64,000 nt of DNA. It comes from Natronosporangium hydrolyticum (GTDB lineage: Bacteria; Actinomycetota; Actinomycetes; Mycobacteriales; Micromonosporaceae). The translations under genes and the position numbers were made by a program. Positions 26,797 through 42,882 of the stretch are shown here, piece after piece; within the stretch, counting starts at the first letter, position 1; the number at the start of each line of letters is the position of its first letter. The stretch spans positions 3,472,001-3,536,000 of the forward strand of contig NZ_CP070499.1 in NCBI RefSeq assembly GCF_016925615.1, written 5' to 3'. The notes beneath the pieces were generated by a model. That model made no database searches. It was not told the DNA's origin and saw only the letters and a list, made by a program, of their open reading frames with translations.

Positions 26797-26907
26797 GCGT
26801 AATCTCCCGCCCGGTGAGGAGTGACCGTCAGCCGCATCCTACCGGCGAGTAACCACTTTTGGGGATCCCACAGCACGCGTCGTGCCTGGCCACACCGTAG
26901 ATGTAGT

Positions 26908-26920
26908 TTGTGATTCGCGT
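26908..26920. promoter_or_regulatory. Candidate XRE-type operator (partial) upstream of the methyltransferase
   Basis: TTGTGATTCGCGT matches the first nine bases of the full palindrome at 27825-27837 (TTGTGATTCACAA). It lies 66 bp before the methyltransferase start. The second half is degenerate, so this is a weaker call. Confidence 0.4.
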
Positions 26921-26986
26921 ATCAAGTGTCACACTGCTACGTACCTACACACGGATAGCACGACCCCTCTTGCCTGGAGACACCCT

Positions 26987-27799
26987 ATGACCCACACGAG
27001 CATTCCCGAACGGCCCACCTCCGCGGGAATGTACGACTACTACCTGGGCGGCGCTGCTCACACTCCGATCGACCGAGCGGCGGCTGAGCAGATCGTCCAG
27101 CTGATCCCGGCGGTCCAGGACGGCGCCTGGGCGAACCGGGGGTTCCTCCAGCGGGCGGTCCGGCGCCTCGCCTCGGAGTACGGCATCCGCCAGTTCCTCG
27201 ATCTCGGCTCGGGGCTTCCGACCCAACGCAACACCCACGATGTGGTCGCCGAGTCGGTCCCCGACGGACGGGTGGTCTACGTGGACGTGGACCCGGCGGT
27301 AGTAGCGCAGGCCGCCGACCTGCTCGACGGGGTGCCGACCGCGACCGCCGTCCAGGCCGACGTCCGGGACCCGGCCGCCATCCTCGACCATCCGGAGACC
27401 CGCCGGTTGATCGACTTCTCGCAGCCGGTCGGAGTCTTGCTGGTGGCGGTGCTCCACTTCGTCGACGACGATGACGATCCGTGGGGCCTGGTCGCGCGTT
27501 ACCTCGCCGCCGTACCCGCCGGCTCGTACCTGGCGCTGTCCCACAGCGCGGTCGGCGACCGACTCTCCGACCAGGTGCGCGACCTGAGCGAGCAGGTCTA
27601 CCGGAATACCGCACACCCGCCTACCGATCGGTCCAAGACCGAGATTGAGCAGTTCTTCCGGGGGTTGGCGCTGGTCCCGCCGCATCCCGGAGCGCCGCCT
27701 GCGGTGACCTTCGTGGGGCTCTGGGGGGCGGAGGACCTCCCAGCGGCCGATAGCGACGGTGCCCGGATGGGCTATGCGGGGGTGGCCCGAAAGCCCTGA
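26987..27799 (+). CDS. SAM-dependent methyltransferase, DUF574 type
   Basis: A 270-residue protein of the actinobacterial DUF574/Methyltransf_19 family. Typical segments are the N-terminal R-P-T-S-A-G-M-Y-D-Y-Y-L-G-G, the SAM motif I F-L-D-L-G-S-G-L-P-T, V-Y-V-D-V-D-P and H-F-V-D-D. The ATG at 26987 has GGAGA 6 bp upstream; an earlier in-frame start has none. Members are very numerous in streptomycetes and relatives and often sit beside XRE/DUF397 regulators, as here, but their methyl acceptor is unknown. Confidence 0.9.
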   Translation: MTHTSIPERPTSAGMYDYYLGGAAHTPIDRAAAEQIVQLIPAVQDGAWANRGFLQRAVRRLASEYGIRQFLDLGSGLPTQRNTHDVVAESVPDGRVVYVDVDPAVVAQAADLLDGVPTATAVQADVRDPAAILDHPETRRLIDFSQPVGVLLVAVLHFVDDDDDPWGLVARYLAAVPAGSYLALSHSAVGDRLSDQVRDLSEQVYRNTAHPPTDRSKTEIEQFFRGLALVPPHPGAPPAVTFVGLWGAEDLPAADSDGARMGYAGVARKP

Positions 27800-27824
27800 G
27801 CATGAAATTTGACAGCTGCACGTC

Positions 27825-27837
27825 TTGTGATTCACAA
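27825..27837. promoter_or_regulatory. Candidate operator upstream of the XRE/DUF397 pair
   Basis: TTGTGA-T-TCACAA is a perfect 13-bp palindrome 50 bp before the GTG start of the XRE gene. Related sites are at 26908 and 29142. Confidence 0.6.
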
Positions 27838-27887
27838 CTTAGGAGCCTGTATGCTACTACTAGGGCTCTGCTAAGGGAGGTGAGCCG

Positions 27888-28733
27888 GTGACTGTTGCCT
27901 ACGGCGCCACGGTCGCCAAACGCCGGCTGTCCCGCCGGCTCACCGAGCTGCGGGGCGCCACGACCTTCACCGCCAACCAGGTCTGTGACAAGTTGGGGTG
28001 GGGGCGCGGCAAGCTCGGTCGATTTGAGGGAAACACCTGGAAACGCCCGGAACTCAGCGACATCCGAGATCTGCTGCGTTTCTATCAGGTCAACGACGAG
28101 GAGCGGCGAGAGCTCGAAGAGCTCGCCCGCCGCGCTCGGGCCCGCGACTGGTGGCGCGAGTACGGCGACGTCTTCGGCGACACCGAGTTCCCCGGCTTCG
28201 AGGCGGACGCGACTCGGGTCTGCCTCTACATGCCGCTGGTCTTACCCGGGTTGTTGCAGACCCCCGCCTACACCGAGGCACAGATGAACGTGGCGACCCA
28301 GTCTCCGGACTGGCGCAAACGGACCCTGGAGGCCCGGCAACGCCGCCAGGAGATCCTGGACCGTGACGACGGCACCGCTCCCCGGCTGGAGGTCGTGGTC
28401 ACCGAAGCGTCGCTGCTCTACCAGTGGGGGACCCGGGAGGACCGGCACGCCCTCTTCACGCGACTGATAGAGCTAAGCCAACGCGCCAAGGTGGACCTCC
28501 GGCTGCTGCGGTTCCAGGACGGGCTGCACCCGGGGATGTGCGGCCCGATCAACATCTTCGACTTCCCCGGTGGGGAACCTCAAGCGGTCTTCCTTGAGAC
28601 CGACTTCGCGATTGAGGAGGTGAATGGACTAGCCGAGGTCGGGGCGTACAAAGAGATCTTCAGCCGGATCCGGGACGCGGCGGCAGACCCCGCCACTACC
28701 ACGGCTGAGTTGACCAGATTACGGGAAAACTAG
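27888..28733 (+). CDS. XRE-family regulator with DUF5753 domain
   Basis: A 281-residue helix-turn-helix protein (HTH about 12-65, including FTANQVCDKLGWGRGKLGRF) followed by a DUF5753 domain (about 95-275), which contains L-V-L-P-G-L-L-Q-T-P and E-A-S-L-L-Y-Q. This is the architecture of WhiJ-like actinobacterial regulators, normally encoded beside a small DUF397 protein, as here. GGGAGGTGA precedes the GTG start. It probably binds the palindrome in its own promoter; the DUF397 partner may modulate DNA binding. Confidence 0.94.
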   Translation: MTVAYGATVAKRRLSRRLTELRGATTFTANQVCDKLGWGRGKLGRFEGNTWKRPELSDIRDLLRFYQVNDEERRELEELARRARARDWWREYGDVFGDTEFPGFEADATRVCLYMPLVLPGLLQTPAYTEAQMNVATQSPDWRKRTLEARQRRQEILDRDDGTAPRLEVVVTEASLLYQWGTREDRHALFTRLIELSQRAKVDLRLLRFQDGLHPGMCGPINIFDFPGGEPQAVFLETDFAIEEVNGLAEVGAYKEIFSRIRDAAADPATTTAELTRLREN

Positions 28734-34466: not shown

Positions 34467-37400
34467 CTATTCATGATCCAACGTGATCTTCGCCAACACC
34501 TCTTCGGGAGTGAGCGCGCTGGCGGGATGGTGGCTCAGGCACAACGGCGCCTGCAGCTTGCGGAAGCCGGCACCCTCGATCGCGGCGTAGAACTCACCCT
34601 TGCCCAGCCGCCCGATGTCCGGCACCTCCCCCGCCTTGGCCCGCGCCAACTCCTTCGCCGCGGCGATCTGCGCGGGCACGTTGAGCAGTCCGAAGAACTG
34701 CGTCGACGCGTTGCCGGAGATCTGATTGTGCAGGCTCTTCGGCGCCTGGGTAGCGAAGACCAACCCCAGGCCGTACTTGCGGGCCTGGGCGGTGAGCGCG
34801 ATCGTGCTCTGGGTGCACGGCGTCATCCCCTGCGCCGGGGCCAGGGTCGCCGCCTCATCCATGACGAAGAGACCGCCGAGCGGCCGGTCGCCGGCCGGGT
34901 GCTGTTTGATCCAGGCGAACAGCGCCAGCTGCAGCTGGTTGACGAAGCTCTGCTTGCTCTCGTTGGAGGCCAAGCCGACGAAGCTAACCACCGAGATCCG
35001 GGAGCGCCGGCCCGGCGCCGGGGTCAGCAGCACCCCCGGGTCCACTGGCGCGCCGACCTCGCTGGCGAAGAGTCGATCGTTGACCGTCGCGGCCCGCAGA
35101 TTCTGGGCGAGTTCGTTGGCGAGCTTTGTCGCCTCGTCGAGCTGGCTGACGCCCTCCGGCAACTCCGAGAGCAGCTCGATGAACCCAGCCAGCTCGCTGC
35201 TGCCCTGCCTGCCATAGTGGCGCAGCGCCTCCCGCAGCACCGCCTGGCCGCGGCTCGCCTTCGGCGTCTTGCCCTCCACCCGGGCCCGTGGTGCCAGCGC
35301 CGCCACCGCCGCCTCCACGGCCTGCTCGAACTCATCTGGATCGCCGCGGACTTCGGCGAAATCGGGCAGCGGCTGGAAGCTCAACGGTCGGCCGGCGAGG
35401 GTGCCCGGGGTCCAGATCACCACCTCGGTATGGGCGAGGTAGTCGGCGGCGGCGGCTTCGTCGCCGGGCCACCAACCGGCGGGCGGCTCCGGCCACGGGT
35501 CGCCCAACCGCGCCAGGTCGTTGTTCGGGTCCAGCACGATCGCGGAGACGCCCTGCCGGGCACACTCCTCGACCAGCCGTCGAATCAGAACGGTCTTACC
35601 CGACCCGGAGCCGGCGAAGATCACGGTGTGTCGGCGCAACGCCGCCAAGTCGACGCCGACCGGCTCGCCGTCCTCCCTGGCTCTGCCAACCAGGACCGCG
35701 GGTGCCGTCGACGCTTCGCTGTCGGGTTTGTGGGGTGGCAAGGGCTCCGTGCCTATCGTTCCGGACCCCTCCGGCGTCGTGTCGTCGAGCCCCGGGGCAA
35801 GGTCCTCGACGACGTCGAGGAAGGCTGCCTGGAACAGCGCAATGCCGTGCGCCGGTCGCCTGGCCGCCAGCCATGGCCGCAACGCGTCGATCCCGCGCGC
35901 CTCTAACAACTCCCGCAGCGCAGTCAAGGTTCGGACGTCGTCGTCCGGCAGCGGCAGCACCTCCCCGCCAGCTTTGTGGAAGGTCTCCAGCGTCTCAGCT
36001 GTACGCCGGCCGCGATTCCAATCTTCGTTGCGGAGCAGGAACAGCCGTCGCTTCGGTACCCCCTCGGTGAGCCCGGCCGCGGTCATCGCGTTTCGGACCC
36101 GATTGAGCTCTGAGTTGCCGTGGGCCGGGGCGACCGCCCGGAAGCACCAGTGGACCTCGTCCTCGCGCTGCTCGGCGAGGCTGCGCCGGAGGCGGGCATG
36201 CAACGCCGGCCTCCGGCCCGGGGGAGGGTCGACATAGAAGCCCGCGCCCGCGGCGTCCGCCTCCGCTATCCATATCGTCAGGCCGGCGTGCAGCAACCCC
36301 GGCATCCGCGTGTCCTCACTCCGAAGCGCCAGGGCAAGGGTCGGATCGACGCTCGCCCGCAGCTCGGCGAACTCCTGGTCCAAGGAGACCAGCTCCGCCT
36401 CGGTGGCGCGCCGCGCCGGGCGGCCGGCCGGGCGCTGAGGGGTGTCACGCAGGTCCGAGAGCTCCCGGACCTCGCCGTCCCGTAGACACGCCCGCACATG
36501 CGTATCGACGGTTATCAGCAGTTGGCGGGGGGTGAACTTCCTCGCGCGAGCGAACGCGACCGGTGCGATCGGCCAGGTCGGATACGGCGGGGTGAAGCCC
36601 ACCTCGGCGAATCGTTCCGTGAACCTCCTCGCCACGAGCTGTTCGGCCAGCTCCGGAGTCGGAATACGCCACAGGGTCGCGGTCGGCTTGAACCGGTCCT
36701 GCACCGTATCGGTCGCGTAGTTGCGCACCATCTCCCAGACCTGCGGCAGACAGGAGACTATCGAGAGCGTCCGCCGAGTCGCTTCCCGTAGCGCCATCAG
36801 CCCGCCCGCAACCTGCTCCAAAACAAGCGCTTGCCGTAAGCGGTCCTCCGGGGATCCCGCGAGCCCGGTCTCGCTGCCGGCCGCCGACTTCACTGACTGA
36901 GCGATAAGCAGATCGATCTGGTCGACCGCGATGACGGTCGGGCCGGTCAGCGCGAGCAAGCGGGAGAGCTCTCGGACCACATCCTGGGAGGTGTGCCGGC
37001 TGCGCCGGATGCCCCACCGCGCCCGCTCGCCGTGTTCGCCCTCGTCGTTGCCGCAGAGGTACGCATGGCCGATGTCCTGCTGTTCGAAAACGTCGGAGGC
37101 CAGCAACACCAACGCCCGCAGCGTGTGCTGGCAGGCCATCCCGACCTGCGGACTGGCCTTGCGGAGCTGATCGACGAACGCGTCCAGGCTCGCCCGGGAA
37201 AGTTCAGCCTCCCCGACCGCCGCCTGCCGCACTGCCGGCGGGGCCCCAACCAGCTCAGCCAGCCGGCGTAGGAATCCGGTAAGCTGGCTGCCCTCGCCCG
37301 CATCCCGCGGCAGATCCTCCACCATCGAAAGCGCAGCGCTACGCCAGAAGGTGCTCGCGTCCCGCAGGCCAATCAAGAAGAAGTAACCGTCGGCCAGATG

Positions 37401-37643
37401 GAGCTGCTCGCGCACCCAGCCCAGCAGATGCGTCTTGCCGGAGCCGCGTTGCCCTAGGACCGCGACCCCGACCGGGCTGGATCCGTCGCTACGCACGGCA
37501 TCAGCGATGCCTGCGAGGATGGTTCTCTCTGCTTGCAGGTGCAAGCCCGCCACATGGAACGGTGTCGCACGCCAAACGTCATCGGGGGTGGGCGCCCAGT
37601 TGAAGCTGAGCGCTTCCAACGCGTCGCGTTCGGCCTCGTTCAT
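34467..37643 (-). CDS. Double ATPase: N-terminal AAA module fused to a C-terminal HerA/FtsK-like ATPase
   Basis: A 1058-residue cytoplasmic protein with two P-loop modules. The first (about 25-400) resembles Orc/Cdc6-like AAA ATPases: Walker A G-Q-R-G-S-G-K-T at 64-71 and Walker B T-V-I-A-V-D-Q-I-D near 236-244. A middle region (about 420-600) with mixed alpha/beta pattern is not recognised. The second (about 640-1058) is HerA/DUF87-like: G-S-G-S-G-K-T at 678-684, I-V-L-D-P-N-N-D-L-A, the Walker B V-M-D-E-A, and V-F-A-T-Q-A-P-K-S-L-H-N. HerA-type proteins are DNA translocases and recur in defence and conjugation systems. The ATG at 37643 overlaps the stop of the upstream wHTH gene. Confidence 0.87.
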   Translation of the reverse strand: MNEAERDALEALSFNWAPTPDDVWRATPFHVAGLHLQAERTILAGIADAVRSDGSSPVGVAVLGQRGSGKTHLLGWVREQLHLADGYFFLIGLRDASTFWRSAALSMVEDLPRDAGEGSQLTGFLRRLAELVGAPPAVRQAAVGEAELSRASLDAFVDQLRKASPQVGMACQHTLRALVLLASDVFEQQDIGHAYLCGNDEGEHGERARWGIRRSRHTSQDVVRELSRLLALTGPTVIAVDQIDLLIAQSVKSAAGSETGLAGSPEDRLRQALVLEQVAGGLMALREATRRTLSIVSCLPQVWEMVRNYATDTVQDRFKPTATLWRIPTPELAEQLVARRFTERFAEVGFTPPYPTWPIAPVAFARARKFTPRQLLITVDTHVRACLRDGEVRELSDLRDTPQRPAGRPARRATEAELVSLDQEFAELRASVDPTLALALRSEDTRMPGLLHAGLTIWIAEADAAGAGFYVDPPPGRRPALHARLRRSLAEQREDEVHWCFRAVAPAHGNSELNRVRNAMTAAGLTEGVPKRRLFLLRNEDWNRGRRTAETLETFHKAGGEVLPLPDDDVRTLTALRELLEARGIDALRPWLAARRPAHGIALFQAAFLDVVEDLAPGLDDTTPEGSGTIGTEPLPPHKPDSEASTAPAVLVGRAREDGEPVGVDLAALRRHTVIFAGSGSGKTVLIRRLVEECARQGVSAIVLDPNNDLARLGDPWPEPPAGWWPGDEAAAADYLAHTEVVIWTPGTLAGRPLSFQPLPDFAEVRGDPDEFEQAVEAAVAALAPRARVEGKTPKASRGQAVLREALRHYGRQGSSELAGFIELLSELPEGVSQLDEATKLANELAQNLRAATVNDRLFASEVGAPVDPGVLLTPAPGRRSRISVVSFVGLASNESKQSFVNQLQLALFAWIKQHPAGDRPLGGLFVMDEAATLAPAQGMTPCTQSTIALTAQARKYGLGLVFATQAPKSLHNQISGNASTQFFGLLNVPAQIAAAKELARAKAGEVPDIGRLGKGEFYAAIEGAGFRKLQAPLCLSHHPASALTPEEVLAKITLDHE

Positions 37644-38281
37644 TCCGGACCGATCGATATCAAATGCTTCTGCTGATTTCCGATCCACACCGCTGCCGCC
37701 CGGTCCGCATCGGTCAGGGCCAGTTGGTCAGAGGCTGGGGCCAGGGCGACCTGTGGATCGTCACTGAGCTCCAGCAGAGCTTCATCGACCTCGTCGCTGG
37801 CTGCGGCGCCTAGGAGCGGCCGCAGCTGCGCGAGCCGGACCCAGCCGCCGGGCCGGTCGACGAGCTCTTGGTACGCCTTGCGGGCCCGGGCCGCCAACTC
37901 CGAGGTGTTCGCTGGCGAGTGGGTCAGCGGATCCTCCCTGGAGAAGAACTCGGGTAGGCTGATGCCGAGCCGGTCCAACCCTCGCTGCACATTGGCCAGC
38001 AGTGCATACGCCGCGCCCCCGCCGGCACCGAGCCCCGGCGGGACCGGGACCTCGGCCTGCTGGCGACCCCACCGCCACCCCGCCTCTGTGAGCTCCAGGT
38101 GATACCGCTGGCCCTCTCGGCGGGCCGAGATCAACTCCGCCGTCACCAGCCGCTCACGGAAATTCTTCTTGAGCTCGCACCGGAAGTGGTTGGTGAGTTC
38201 TGAGTTCGCCACCTCCCGAGCCTCCGCCATGAGGATCATCAATACCGAGCGCTGCACCAGGGTCAGCTTCTCGTCCGACAT
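37640..38281 (-). CDS. Winged-helix protein coupled to the AAA-HerA gene
   Basis: A 213-residue protein of unknown function. The N-terminal 90 residues look like a winged helix (L-T-L-V-Q-R-S-V-L-M-I-L-M-A-E-A, then E-L-T-N-H-F with a wing near R-R-E-G-Q-R-Y-H-L-E-L-T-E-A-G). The rest is helical. The ATG at 38281 has GAAGGGA upstream. It is the first gene of the minus-strand operon and its stop overlaps the AAA-HerA start, so the two products probably act together, perhaps as a DNA-binding or adaptor subunit. Family name not recognised. Confidence 0.75.
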   Translation of the reverse strand: MSDEKLTLVQRSVLMILMAEAREVANSELTNHFRCELKKNFRERLVTAELISARREGQRYHLELTEAGWRWGRQQAEVPVPPGLGAGGGAAYALLANVQRGLDRLGISLPEFFSREDPLTHSPANTSELAARARKAYQELVDRPGGWVRLAQLRPLLGAAASDEVDEALLELSDDPQVALAPASDQLALTDADRAAAVWIGNQQKHLISIGPE

Positions 38282-38430
38282 CCCGAGTCCCTTCACGTCC
38301 GGGGCGGCGCCGCCCCAAGCCCAGAAATGTTGGCCGGTCTCGTCCCCCTGAGCATATCCCGCGATCGTCCTACATCAATCTACGATCATTCGATAGGCTT
38401 CGTTCAAACATCGGCCGCTTGTCGCTGATT

Positions 38431-38459
38431 GTCGCATGAGGATGAGCCGATCATGCGAC
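38431..38459. promoter_or_regulatory. Palindrome in the divergent promoter region of the HerA and trypsin-NACHT operons
   Basis: GTCGCATGA-N11-TCATGCGAC has perfect 9-bp arms and a 29-bp span. It lies in the 232-bp gap between the wHTH start (38281) and the Trypco1-like start (38514). A 20-bp centre-to-centre spacing suits a dimeric regulator on one DNA face, so it may coordinate the two operons. Confidence 0.55.
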
Positions 38460-38513
38460 CCGCCTGCGGGGGCGGTGCCTCCTATGATGGCGAGGTTTGA
38501 ACGGAGGTCGATT

Positions 38514-38825
38514 GTGGCGGCAACCCAGATCGTCAGCTATCAGGTCGATGATCAGACAACAGTGGAGATTGAGGCCGCCCTGGCAGAGGGCTACCTGCCA
38601 GCGGGCAGGGGGGAAGACGTAGTCGGGTGGGTCAAGCAGGCCGCAGCGCCATCGATCCGGGCTGCTGGCGTCGTGTTGGCGCAAGCCCAGGAGCTGGCCC
38701 CCGACGAGGTCTCGGTCACCTTCGGGGTAAAGGTCGCGGGCCGGGTCAACTGGCTGGTGGCGCAGACCGCCAGCGAGGGAACCTTCCAGGTGGCCCTCAC
38801 CTGGCGACGGAGTTCGGACGGTTAA
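38514..38825 (+). CDS. Trypco1-like (CU044_2847-type) small protein
   Basis: A 103-residue protein. The C-terminal half (P-D-E-V-S-V-T-F-G-V-K-V-A-G-R, then A-S-E-G-T-F-Q-V-A-L-T-W) matches the pattern of trypsin-co-occurring domain 1. Those small proteins accompany trypsin-like peptidases in actinobacterial conflict systems. The GTG at 38514 is chosen because GGAGG lies 6 bp upstream; earlier in-frame ATGs run through the operator. It ends 4 bp before the trypsin-NACHT-WD40 gene, so the two are translationally linked. Its job may be to anchor or regulate the protease. Confidence 0.83.
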   Translation: MAATQIVSYQVDDQTTVEIEAALAEGYLPAGRGEDVVGWVKQAAAPSIRAAGVVLAQAQELAPDEVSVTFGVKVAGRVNWLVAQTASEGTFQVALTWRRSSDG

Positions 38826-38829
38826 CCGG

Positions 38830-41800
38830 GTGCCGACCCGCCTCACCTCGCCCCCGGACTCGTGGACCGCCGCGGTCCACCCGGGCCCGGACGACTGCCG
38901 GATCCTCGGCACCGGCGTGGTCATCGCCGAGCACCGCGTCCTGACCAGCGCACACATACTGCGAACCGCACAGGGGCGGCGCAATCGCGTCTGGGTCGCC
39001 TTCCCCAAGGCCGGCGTGCCCTACCAGGAACGGCGGGAAGCCCACTGCCGATTCATCGGGGATCCCCGCGATCTCGACCTTGCCGTGCTGGAGCTGGTGC
39101 ACCCCGCCCCGGCAGCGGCACTGCCGGCTCGAATACGCTGTGTACCCGCGGACGAACTCCGCAACCTTGACTGGTGGACGTTCGGATTTCCAGCTAGCCA
39201 CCAGGGCGCCGGCAACGAAGCGCACGGCCGGGTCGGCGCGACGCTGAGCTACGGCACGGTCCAGCTGGAGGTCCACCCGGCTTCCCTGCTTGATCAAGGC
39301 TTCAGCGGCAGCGGCGTCTGGGCCTCGGAGTACGCTGCGGTGGTAGGACTGGTGACCGCCGCTGCCGCGGTCGGCCGTGGCCAGGGCAACGGCTTTGCCT
39401 TGACCCTTGACTGGATCGACCACGAACTGCCCGATCTGGAGCTGCGCCGGATCGGACGCTGGCGCGCCGAGGCGGCCGACGACCGGGCGCTGGCGGCCTG
39501 GGGGTGGCGCCGCCGGCCCGATCCGGCACTCGGACGGCACTGGTCGCCACGCAGCCAGGGGGTGCTCAGCAGCGAGGAGCCGGGATGCGGTTTCCACGGT
39601 AGACGGCGGGCGCTGACCGACCTGCTGGAGTGGCTGAACGCGCTCCCCGACGGGCGATTGTTGGTGGTCACCGGCTCGCCCGGGGTAGGCAAGTCGGCGC
39701 TACTCGGCAGGATCGTGACCACCTCAGATCCCGAGTTGTCGGCGCAACTGCCCGCTCAGGACGACGCTCTCCGGGCGCCACTCGGGTCGGTCACCTGCGC
39801 GGTGCACGCCAGCGGAAAGACCGCTACCGAGGTCGCCGCCGAAATCGCCCGCGCCGCCTCGGTAGCCATTCCCGCAAGTGCTGAGGAGCTGGTGCCGGTG
39901 CTGCGACGCCGGCTACGCCTTCAGCCGGGCCGGTTCACCCTGATCCTGGACGCGCTCGACGAGATGGCCTCACCCGACCAACCGCGGCTCATCCAGCAGG
40001 TGCTCCCCTTGCTGGTCGAGCCTGGTCCAGGGGCGGCCCAGGTCGTCGTTGCTACCCGCCGCGCCGATCAGCAGGGTGACCTGCTCGAGGCATTTGCCGA
40101 CTCCGCCGTCGTCATGGATCTCGACCGACATCCCTATATGGCCGAGGCTGACCTGGTCGCCTACGCCACCGCCGTACTCCAGCGGTGGGGAGCAGACCGT
40201 GCCGACCACCCGTACCGACCAGCGGCCGCAGCCGCGCCGGTCGCCCAGCGAATCGCGGCGTGCTCCGGCGGCAACTTCCTGATCGCGGGACTGATCGCAC
40301 GAGGCCATGCCCGGGACGACACCGAGCCGGTCGACCCGGCCGACGTCTCCTTCTCACCAACCGTCGATGCCGCCCTCGAGTCGTACCTGGCCGGACTGGC
40401 GCCGGTCGGGACCAGCTCAGCCAGACTTGCGCTCACGGTGCTGGCCTATGCGGAGTCGCCCGGGATTCCGCTGCCGATGTGGCACGCTGGGATCGCCGCG
40501 CTCGGCGGAGATGCCGAAGAGCTTCAGCTGGCGGAGTTCGCTCACGGGCCTGCGGCTAACTTTCTCGTAGGCACCGACTCTGGTCCGTCAGTGCGGGGTT
40601 ACCGACTGTTTCACCAGGCGCTCGCCGACGCGCTCCGGCGCGCCCGAGAGACGAGCGGCGTCAGCAACGCTGCTGACCAGGCCAGTCTGTTGGCCGTGTG
40701 GCTCCGACAAGGCCGTGGCACTGGCTGGACCACCGCCTACGACTACCTGCTGCGGCGGTTGCCGGTCCACGCGGAACAGGCGGGAGCGGTGGACGAACTG
40801 CTCTGCGACGACAGTTACCTGCTGCATGCGGACCTCGCGGCGATCAGTCGAGTGACCCAGGCGGCGGGCTCGGGGCTTAGCCGACGCCGCGCCCGGTTGC
40901 TACACCGGACACCTCAAGCGGTTACCGCCGAACCGATGACCCGTGCGGCGTTGTTCTCCGTGTCTGACCTCATCGACCAGCTAGCGACCGGCTTGCCCGC
41001 GAGTCGTGCGCCGTATCAAGGACGTTGGGCACACACCCGCCCCCGCGGCGAGCACACATCGCTCGAGGGCCACACGACCGCCGTACTCGCCGTCTCCTCC
41101 GTACCAGGGCCCGAGGGTGATCTGCTCGCCTCGGCCGGCGCCGATGGCACGATCCGGCTCTGGGACCCCGCGACCGGCCAGCCCAAACGCGTGCTCGATG
41201 GTCACACCGACCAGGTGTACGCCCTCTGTGCGCTGCCCGGCTGCCTCGGTTACTCGCTCGCCTCGGCCGGCGCCGACCACACCGTACGGGTCTGGGACGT
41301 GGTGAGGGGCGAGCCCGGGCCGGTCATGGCCGGCCACACCGATTGGGTCCGTGGGCTGTGCGCGATCACCGTAGCCGAGCGACCGCTGCTCGCCTCGGCC
41401 AGCGACGACCACACGGTCCGGCTCTGGGACCCCATGAGCGGTGACCAGCTCGGCAAGCTGCCGCACCCCGGCTGGGTCACGGCGGTCTGCCCGGTCACGG
41501 TAGCGGGCACGACGCTACTCGCCACTGCTGGTCTCGATCTCCCGGTTACGTTGTGGGATCCGGGCACCGGGGAGCGGGTTGGCGAATTCGCCGCTCCGCC
41601 CTACTGGTTAACCTCGCTGGCGGCAGTCTCCGTCGCGGAGCGGGAACTGCTCGCCGGTGCCGGATACGGCAACGGGCTCTGGTTATGGGATCCCGGCAAC
41701 GGTCAGCCCGGCCAACTGGCGGCTGCGATCGACGCTCCGGTAGCTGCGTTGGCCACGCTACCGCCCGGCGGGCGAAGTCAGCTCGCAGCGGCGGGCGAAG

Positions 41801-42882
41801 ACCGCTTAGTCAGGCTATGGGACCCGGCCACGGGCCGACTGGGCCCGGTACTGGCTGGCCACACCGACCAGGTAAGGGGAGTCTGCGCCGTCAAGGCCGG
41901 TGGTCGATCACTGCTCGCCTCCGCTGGCGACGACGGCACCGTTCGACTGTGGGATCCGAGCACCGGGGCAGCTGAGCGGGTGCTTGACGGCGCTGGGCTG
42001 GTGGCCCGGTTGGCGCTGTCGACCGCTGCTCACCCCAGAGTAGTCGCCGCCGCTGGTGGGGACGGTGATGTCCACCTCTTCGATCTGGTTACCGGTCGTC
42101 CGGGGAGACGGCTCGCCGCCGGCCCGGCCGCTGCCACCAGCATCTGCCCCCTGCCAGCTTCAGTTACTAGCTTCGCGGTCGGTACGGACCATGGCGCTGT
42201 CCAGCTATGGGAGCCGGAGAGCGGCTCGATCCGGATGCTCTCAGCAGGTCGTCCCGGCGCTCCGATCACAGGCGTCGCAGCCGTGGCCGGTCCAGCGGGC
42301 TACCTAGTCGCTGCCGCCAGCGATGACGAATGGGTCCGGCTTTGGCGCTTGGAGACCCGTAACCTGGAGCTGGTGCTTCACCACCTGTGCCGGGTGACCG
42401 CGATCTGCGCCGTGCCGACCTCCGGTGGCGAGCAGCTACTCGCCACCGCAGACGAGGACGGCGTGGTGCGGCTGTGGGACCCGGCCAGCGGAGAACGGCT
42501 CCACAGCCTTCGAGGGCACCACGCCGCCGCCACCGCGCTGTGCTCGGTCACCACCGGCGGGCGGCAGTTGCTCGCCTCGGCCAGCGAAGACCGGGGCATC
42601 CTGGTCTGGGACCCGGAGACCGGCGACCGGGTCGCCACCTTGCCGGGCCACTCTGGACGGGTAACTGACCTGTGCCCGGTCCAGATCGGCGAGGGCGACC
42701 AGCTGCTCGCCTCCACCAGCGAAGACCGCACGGTGCGGCTCTGGGAGCCGGCCAGCGGCGCCTGCCGGCATCAGATCCCCGTCTACCATCCCGCCCTCGC
42801 CTGCCGGTACACCGACGGCATCCTGGTGCTCGGGTTGACCGCCGGCATCCTCGCCATCGACCTCCGGCCGACCCTACTCTGA
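38830..42882 (+). CDS. Trypsin-NACHT-WD40 protein (protease-NTPase sensor)
   Basis: A 1350-residue cytoplasmic protein with three parts. The trypsin-like peptidase (about 10-200) has His42 in V-L-T-S-A-H, Asp83 in D-L-D-L-A-V and the nucleophile Ser159 in G-F-S-G-S-G. The STAND/NACHT-type NTPase (about 250-560) has Walker A G-S-P-G-V-G-K-S-A at 282-290 and Walker B L-I-L-D-A-L-D-E at 371-378. From about 730 to the end there are thirteen clear WD40 units, most ending R-L-W-D-P, plus a degenerate last one, enough for two seven-bladed propellers. STAND proteins oligomerise when the propeller senses a ligand; here that would activate the protease. The GTG start lies 4 bp after the Trypco1-like gene. 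Confidence 0.93.
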   Translation: MPTRLTSPPDSWTAAVHPGPDDCRILGTGVVIAEHRVLTSAHILRTAQGRRNRVWVAFPKAGVPYQERREAHCRFIGDPRDLDLAVLELVHPAPAAALPARIRCVPADELRNLDWWTFGFPASHQGAGNEAHGRVGATLSYGTVQLEVHPASLLDQGFSGSGVWASEYAAVVGLVTAAAAVGRGQGNGFALTLDWIDHELPDLELRRIGRWRAEAADDRALAAWGWRRRPDPALGRHWSPRSQGVLSSEEPGCGFHGRRRALTDLLEWLNALPDGRLLVVTGSPGVGKSALLGRIVTTSDPELSAQLPAQDDALRAPLGSVTCAVHASGKTATEVAAEIARAASVAIPASAEELVPVLRRRLRLQPGRFTLILDALDEMASPDQPRLIQQVLPLLVEPGPGAAQVVVATRRADQQGDLLEAFADSAVVMDLDRHPYMAEADLVAYATAVLQRWGADRADHPYRPAAAAAPVAQRIAACSGGNFLIAGLIARGHARDDTEPVDPADVSFSPTVDAALESYLAGLAPVGTSSARLALTVLAYAESPGIPLPMWHAGIAALGGDAEELQLAEFAHGPAANFLVGTDSGPSVRGYRLFHQALADALRRARETSGVSNAADQASLLAVWLRQGRGTGWTTAYDYLLRRLPVHAEQAGAVDELLCDDSYLLHADLAAISRVTQAAGSGLSRRRARLLHRTPQAVTAEPMTRAALFSVSDLIDQLATGLPASRAPYQGRWAHTRPRGEHTSLEGHTTAVLAVSSVPGPEGDLLASAGADGTIRLWDPATGQPKRVLDGHTDQVYALCALPGCLGYSLASAGADHTVRVWDVVRGEPGPVMAGHTDWVRGLCAITVAERPLLASASDDHTVRLWDPMSGDQLGKLPHPGWVTAVCPVTVAGTTLLATAGLDLPVTLWDPGTGERVGEFAAPPYWLTSLAAVSVAERELLAGAGYGNGLWLWDPGNGQPGQLAAAIDAPVAALATLPPGGRSQLAAAGEDRLVRLWDPATGRLGPVLAGHTDQVRGVCAVKAGGRSLLASAGDDGTVRLWDPSTGAAERVLDGAGLVARLALSTAAHPRVVAAAGGDGDVHLFDLVTGRPGRRLAAGPAAATSICPLPASVTSFAVGTDHGAVQLWEPESGSIRMLSAGRPGAPITGVAAVAGPAGYLVAAASDDEWVRLWRLETRNLELVLHHLCRVTAICAVPTSGGEQLLATADEDGVVRLWDPASGERLHSLRGHHAAATALCSVTTGGRQLLASASEDRGILVWDPETGDRVATLPGHSGRVTDLCPVQIGEGDQLLASTSEDRTVRLWEPASGACRHQIPVYHPALACRYTDGILVLGLTAGILAIDLRPTLL

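Follow-up and report, generated by a model that had tools for sequence, protein, structure and literature searches.

A divergent locus joining a trypsin-NACHT-WD40 protein to a wHTH-HerA core in Natronosporangium hydrolyticum, a candidate protease-armed conflict system

Do two gene pairs that diverge from one short intergenic region belong to a single system, and if so, of which kind? The question is raised by a locus of Natronosporangium hydrolyticum in a stretch of 64,000 nucleotides of contig NZ_CP070499.1 (hereafter the window), where four intact genes form two divergent pairs: a Trypco1 protein followed by a trypsin-NACHT-WD40 protein on the plus strand and a tandem winged-helix (wHTH) protein followed by an AAA-HerA double ATPase on the minus strand. 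On balance, we consider it probable that these four genes are one inherited unit and represent a protease-armed variant of the conflict systems of the HerA/FtsK-capture type.

Gene content of the window locus

The features of the locus are collected in Table 1. Both gene pairs proposed in an earlier note on this DNA were confirmed. On the minus strand, the AAA-HerA gene is best started at 37643 and its ATG overlaps the wHTH stop (ATGA), while on the plus strand 4 bases separate Trypco1 from the trypsin-NACHT-WD40 gene, whose product has an intact catalytic triad (H42-D83-S159) and retains the NACHT Walker residues K288 (motif A) and D377 (motif B). The extent previously given to the locus (38281-42882) leaves out the AAA-HerA gene (34467-37643).

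Table 1. Coordinates of the genes, domains and spacer in the window.
Feature	Position	Strand	Length and basis
AAA-HerA double ATPase	34467..37643	-	1058 aa; ATG; Pfam hits and gene call
N-terminal AAA domain (residues 1-400)	36444..37643	-	AAA_16
AAA-HerA middle domain (residues 408-612)	35808..36422	-	Secondary structure of the model and alignment
HerA motor (residues 649-1058)	34470..35699	-	VIA-align to HerA and DndH C-domain
Tandem winged-helix (wHTH) protein	37640..38281	-	AlphaFold2 model; neighbor of HerA at 67/67 loci
Divergent spacer between the operons	38282..38513	.	232 bp
Trypco1 protein	38514..38825	+	PF19493, NF041216
Trypsin-NACHT-WD40 protein	38830..42882	+	1350 aa; PF13365, NACHT/AAA_16, WD40

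Trypco1 was identified with PF19493 (E 8.7e-14) and NF041216 (E 8.5e-12). Its best start is the GTG at 38514, which yields 103 aa and is preceded by a ribosome-binding site (GGAGGT, 38503-38508), so that the start at 38436 in the list of open reading frames is less likely. The neighboring protein comprises a trypsin domain (PF13365, E 1.8e-9), an NTPase module matched by NACHT (E 4.7e-6) and AAA_16 (E 1.6e-8), and a WD40 part (E 1e-57). Depending on whether the wHTH protein starts at ATG 38281 or at the alternative GTG 38296, it is 213-218 aa long; its AlphaFold2 model (pLDDT 90.8) displays two winged helices, for which Foldseek returned ArsR/MarR-like folds (E about 0.02).

In the AAA-HerA protein, a single polypeptide carries both an AAA_16 (E 4.4e-9) and a HerA DUF87 match (E 3.1e-12) in Pfam, the AlphaFold2 model reaches a pLDDT of 88.7, and none of the Walker residues in either ATPase varies among 48 relatives. 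The AAA domain, with Walker A GQRGSGKTH and Walker B VIAVDQID, matched AAA_16 in 28 of 28 members and ORC-CDC6-like families weakly, in 7 of the 28 at E<0.1; a fold search with the AAA and middle domains gave a list filled by HerA-motor matches, and membership of the AAA domain in the Orc/CDC6 group is a tentative assignment. The model gives the middle domain an alpha-beta-beta-beta-alpha-beta topology that resembles restriction endonucleases (REases), and the alignment lacks a (D/E)xK motif. Sequence comparison of this domain with PDB and Pfam returned no convincing match; an inactive REase-like (iREase) domain is a weak assignment based on the predicted fold. The HerA motor itself was structurally matched by VIA-align to HerA (4d2i, Z 29.8) and to the C-domain of DndH (7es4, Z 28.7). 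In a distant relative (L041:9977-15585), a second, shorter AAA-HerA-like gene lies directly downstream of the first, which suggests a tandem duplication.

No nuclease gene was recognized at the window locus, where the partner is the trypsin-NACHT-WD40 protein, and a Pfam scan detected no defense genes among the surrounding genes examined. Because synteny of the flanking genes (a TAP-like hydrolase and a CBS-domain protein) breaks down in the relatives that were checked, comparison with an empty site gave no insertion boundary. Elsewhere in the window (26882-28733), an S-adenosyl methyltransferase (PF04672) adjoins an HTH_31-DUF5753 regulator, a pair that is common in actinobacteria.

Linkage across the family and exchange of partners

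A survey of 355 genomes of Micromonosporaceae, the bacterial family of the window, together with earlier hits yielded 71 examinable trypsin-NACHT-WD40 loci. At 47 of them, spread over nine genera, the gene is divergent from wHTH-HerA, while the remaining 24 are unlinked. This arrangement is far beyond chance and bears out the earlier proposal that the two operons belong together; the opposite outcome, that such trypsin genes never occur beside the AAA-HerA/wHTH pair, is refuted by these 47 co-occurrences. In the NACHT tree, a single branch (SH-aLRT 90; support 100/99 on a smaller, careful tree) separates linked from unlinked loci, so that one change explains the distribution, and the window member itself sits on a long branch. 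With all linked loci on one side of this branch, a single joining of the two operons in this lineage, retained ever since, is probable; because the linked loci all come from one bacterial family, it may also be one event that was maintained by co-regulation. The HerA and trypsin trees are largely in step, with a distance correlation of r 0.84 (46 loci) and 22 of 43 splits in common. Among 395 genomes sampled from the class Actinomycetes, 43 contained a close relative of the AAA-HerA protein and 3 a close relative of the trypsin protein, and the sole trypsin match outside the family has Trypco1 and no HerA.

The spacer between the operons measures 232 bp (38282-38513) when the wHTH start is placed at ATG 38281. 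A shared region of this length with a palindrome had been noted earlier, and both are present: a perfect 16-bp palindrome at 38301-38316 is joined by an inverted repeat at 38431-38459. Neither was found in the spacers of seven further linked loci used for comparison, which led us to reject the palindrome as a shared operator. Linked loci instead have in common an element composed of CCGATTCTGCCGA followed about 21 bases on by GCAAGG, which was present at 42 of 47 linked versus 2 of 24 unlinked loci and was confirmed to lie between both operons at 40 linked loci. The window spacer, unlike most, is without it.

Seen from the other side, 67 loci with an AAA-HerA relative were surveyed for partners, and at every one of them the wHTH gene adjoins the AAA-HerA gene. 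Next to this core we found a DUF559 nuclease at 32 of the 67 loci (conserved D272, E283-x-D285 and H289), an NTPase-repeat protein at 10 (3 of those also with DUF559), an AIPR protein at 8 (conserved D60 and Q95-x-K97), and the divergent trypsin-NACHT-WD40 protein at 7. One further trypsin case is split across contigs, with HerA at L046 and trypsin on another contig, L092; within the wHTH gene, exactly 121 bases are common to both contigs. At 2 more loci (L071:13487-15668 and L074:12161-14387), the core stands beside an AAA_15 gene of OLD-like type and what may be a TOPRIM-type partner; these two neighborhoods resemble PARIS or OLD systems. More than one partner class was present at 3 of 65 loci versus 12.3 expected, and trypsin together with another class at 0 of 7 versus 4.4 expected (p 0.001), both expectations being taken from label shuffles that ignore shared ancestry. 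All HerAs linked to trypsin, that of L046 included, group in a single clade (SH-aLRT 99). The genome of the window encodes a second wHTH-HerA core (L053; G000:C1:2485560-2505500) with a DUF559 nuclease instead of the trypsin protein.

These partners, DUF559, AIPR and OLD/TOPRIM-type, support the conflict-system role that was originally proposed. The accompanying expectation of defense-island enrichment is better described as suggestive than as statistically established: PADLOC matches do occur, including CRISPR I-G, OLD, Wadjet and Pycsar types, but within 10 kb they are found near (73 proteins) and farther away (75 proteins) alike, and apparent kinase cross-hits are among the matches listed for 60 control proteins. 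Separately, two DUF559-type wHTH-HerA operons (L050:11791-14474 and L062:4974-7723) have apparent type I-G CRISPR genes just downstream, a call based on Cas7g/Cas56g matches in the scanned set and on fitting gene lengths.

Could the two operons be separate modules that have a divergent promoter in common and are co-inherited without any functional cooperation? We consider this improbable. Trypco1-trypsin-NACHT-WD40 does occur without HerA at 24 loci, most wHTH-HerA loci are without trypsin, the linkage originated once, within a single bacterial family, and the spacer element is missing in the window; yet all 47 members of the clade, from nine genera, have kept the linkage, the trypsin protein replaces other partners and does not accompany them, and the linked clade retains NACHT and HerA after loss of the triad and Trypco1.

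Joint loss of Trypco1 and the catalytic triad

Trypco1 is a named domain that to our knowledge has no experimentally established role. At every locus with Trypco1 the triad is intact (52 loci, to which L181 is added with its histidine out of frame). Conversely, none of the 13 loci with a dead triad has a Trypco1 gene nearby, be they linked to HerA (L076, L077, L196, L198, L204, L205 and L206) or unlinked (L183, L187, L189, L193, L194 and L200). Whole-genome searches in 7 dead-triad genomes found no Trypco1 in 2 and copies solely elsewhere in 5. On the tree, the triad was lost independently 4 times, and all of these losses are among 7 losses of Trypco1. As an independent-pairs test of Trypco1 versus triad had only 3 informative pairs (p 0.25), the association rests on these four events and not on a significance test. 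The pattern of co-loss fits the idea that Trypco1 would matter only to an active protease. Trypco1 is not a strict requirement, since five unlinked loci keep the triad with Trypco1 undetected.

The same loci bear on the possibility that the trypsin domain is mainly regulatory or a binding module, with the output residing in HerA or elsewhere and a live triad processing Trypco1 or the disordered linker of AAA-HerA. At the 7 linked loci with a dead protease, both histidine and serine are lost while the reading frame stays open and wHTH and HerA are preserved, and the Walker motifs are intact in the two of these loci that were inspected (L076 and L077); proteolysis is therefore not essential to every member. 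In vWA-MoxR systems, too, nearly all trypsin domains in the effector position are inactive (PMC7159879), and the AAA-HerA model contains a low-confidence linker (residues 617-646) ahead of the HerA motor. We nevertheless regard a mainly regulatory or binding role of the trypsin domain as unlikely. Trypco1 and an intact triad are retained at 40 of 47 linked loci (counting L181 with its out-of-frame histidine), which argues that protease activity is usually under selection. The linker was rejected as a protease site, its length being variable in all partner classes and not separating protease-linked from nuclease-linked HerAs. At two loci with a dead protease (L076:8093-11956 and L077:8052-11981), it extends to about 270-290 low-complexity residues, whereas no other HerA in the comparison exceeds 112; this long insert was considered as an extra domain and turned out to be merely low-complexity linker.

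A possible mechanism and comparison with known systems

Going beyond the observed gene content, conserved linkage, exchange of partners and joint loss of Trypco1 and triad, we infer a defense function by analogy with related systems, along the following lines. The wHTH and AAA-HerA proteins would form a constant core, with the probable task of engaging and moving the DNA of invaders, and a variable slot next to it would provide sensor and output. In most relatives, this slot is filled by a DUF559 nuclease, sometimes together with the NTPase-repeat protein, or by an AIPR nuclease, and in the window by the trypsin-NACHT-WD40 protein, which is of STAND type, together with the small Trypco1 protein. 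Upon activation, NACHT may oligomerize and thereby switch on the trypsin domain, whose target would be Trypco1, HerA or a protein of the host; Trypco1 would act only with an active protease, either regulating it or serving as its substrate. The mechanism first proposed, in which HerA would inspect or move DNA, the propeller sense a cue and the protease be released on a host target, is likewise hypothetical. More specifically, and as a possibility that we hold tentatively, the HerA core might gate a STAND-linked protease rather than a nuclease, with Trypco1 as a proteolytic switch (substrate or restraint), which would explain its absence wherever the triad is dead.

It is very unlikely that wHTH-HerA is not an immune core but a module, domesticated or selfish, by which a mobile element segregates or transfers DNA: relatives of HerA and FtsK do have roles in segregation, conjugation and packaging, and the motors of TrwB, VirB4 and FtsK match the HerA half too, but the core is accompanied by nucleases, STAND-like NTPases and OLD/TOPRIM-type genes, the neighbors scanned include type I-G CRISPR genes, and the nearest structural relatives include defense HerAs as well as DndH.

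What emerges for the four-gene unit is a DNA-motor core, probably immune, with swappable partners: most relatives have a nuclease, and the window has a protease. If true, HerA systems would extend from DNA cutting to proteolysis, and the absence of Trypco1 whenever the triad is dead provides a directly testable lead on the role of this protein.

Several known systems share parts of this architecture. SIR2-HerA (Nezha) and DUF4297-HerA use the same HerA motor fold and likewise pair HerA with a separate effector, but they are without AAA fusion, wHTH subunit and protease. BREX-Related Capture (PMC12839542) also combines an AAA+ ATPase, a DNA-binding wHTH protein, HerA/FtsK and a STAND NTPase, while its PglZ, DUF4007, GNAT and TGT components were not seen at the window locus. 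Trypco1 genes adjoin multidomain trypsin genes in VMAP and related conflict systems of multicellular bacteria (Kaur et al. 2020, PMC7159879), as in the window, which differs in having wHTH-HerA next to them and no MoxR-vWA ternary core; HerA appears in that article solely in a reference, and VMAP-C is absent from the window locus, its only match in the genome (C1:1195299) being 2.3 Mb away.

AVAST and Hachiman use trypsin-like proteases fused to defense proteins as proteolytic switches, and protease-activated pro-nuclease pairs of Hachiman, AVAST, Lamassu and DRT resemble our locus in the N-terminal trypsin-like fusion and the separate upstream partner gene, although the partner is an MBL-fold nuclease there and Trypco1 here (PMC12799240). 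The window protein does not qualify as AVAST type 1: it matches Avs1b partially, over the trypsin region (residues 26-164, E 2e-7, 28.5 bits versus a cut-off of 1500), and no MBL gene adjoins.

The closest comparison is with the HerA/FtsK capture systems, which are predicted to intercept invader DNA and combine an Orc/CDC6-type AAA+ ATPase, wHTH, iREase, HerA and an active nuclease (Rakesh, Aravind and Krishnan 2024, PMC10853773). The earlier remark that no published system adding an AAA-HerA translocase and a wHTH subunit was known needs to be amended. Trypsin and WD40 are absent from the main text of that article, and a Trypco1-trypsin-NACHT-WD40 partner for wHTH-HerA is undescribed in the open-licence papers searched, though an earlier description elsewhere is possible. 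The window locus differs from these systems by its protease partner in place of a recognized REase effector, and its AAA domain is an AAA_16 domain that is weakly ORC-CDC6-like. It shares with them the AAA ATPase, the HerA motor and the winged-helix protein, its middle domain may correspond to the inactive REase that lies there between the AAA core and a C-terminal wHTH, and through the relatives of the window the likeness extends to an active nuclease partner, DUF559 or AIPR.
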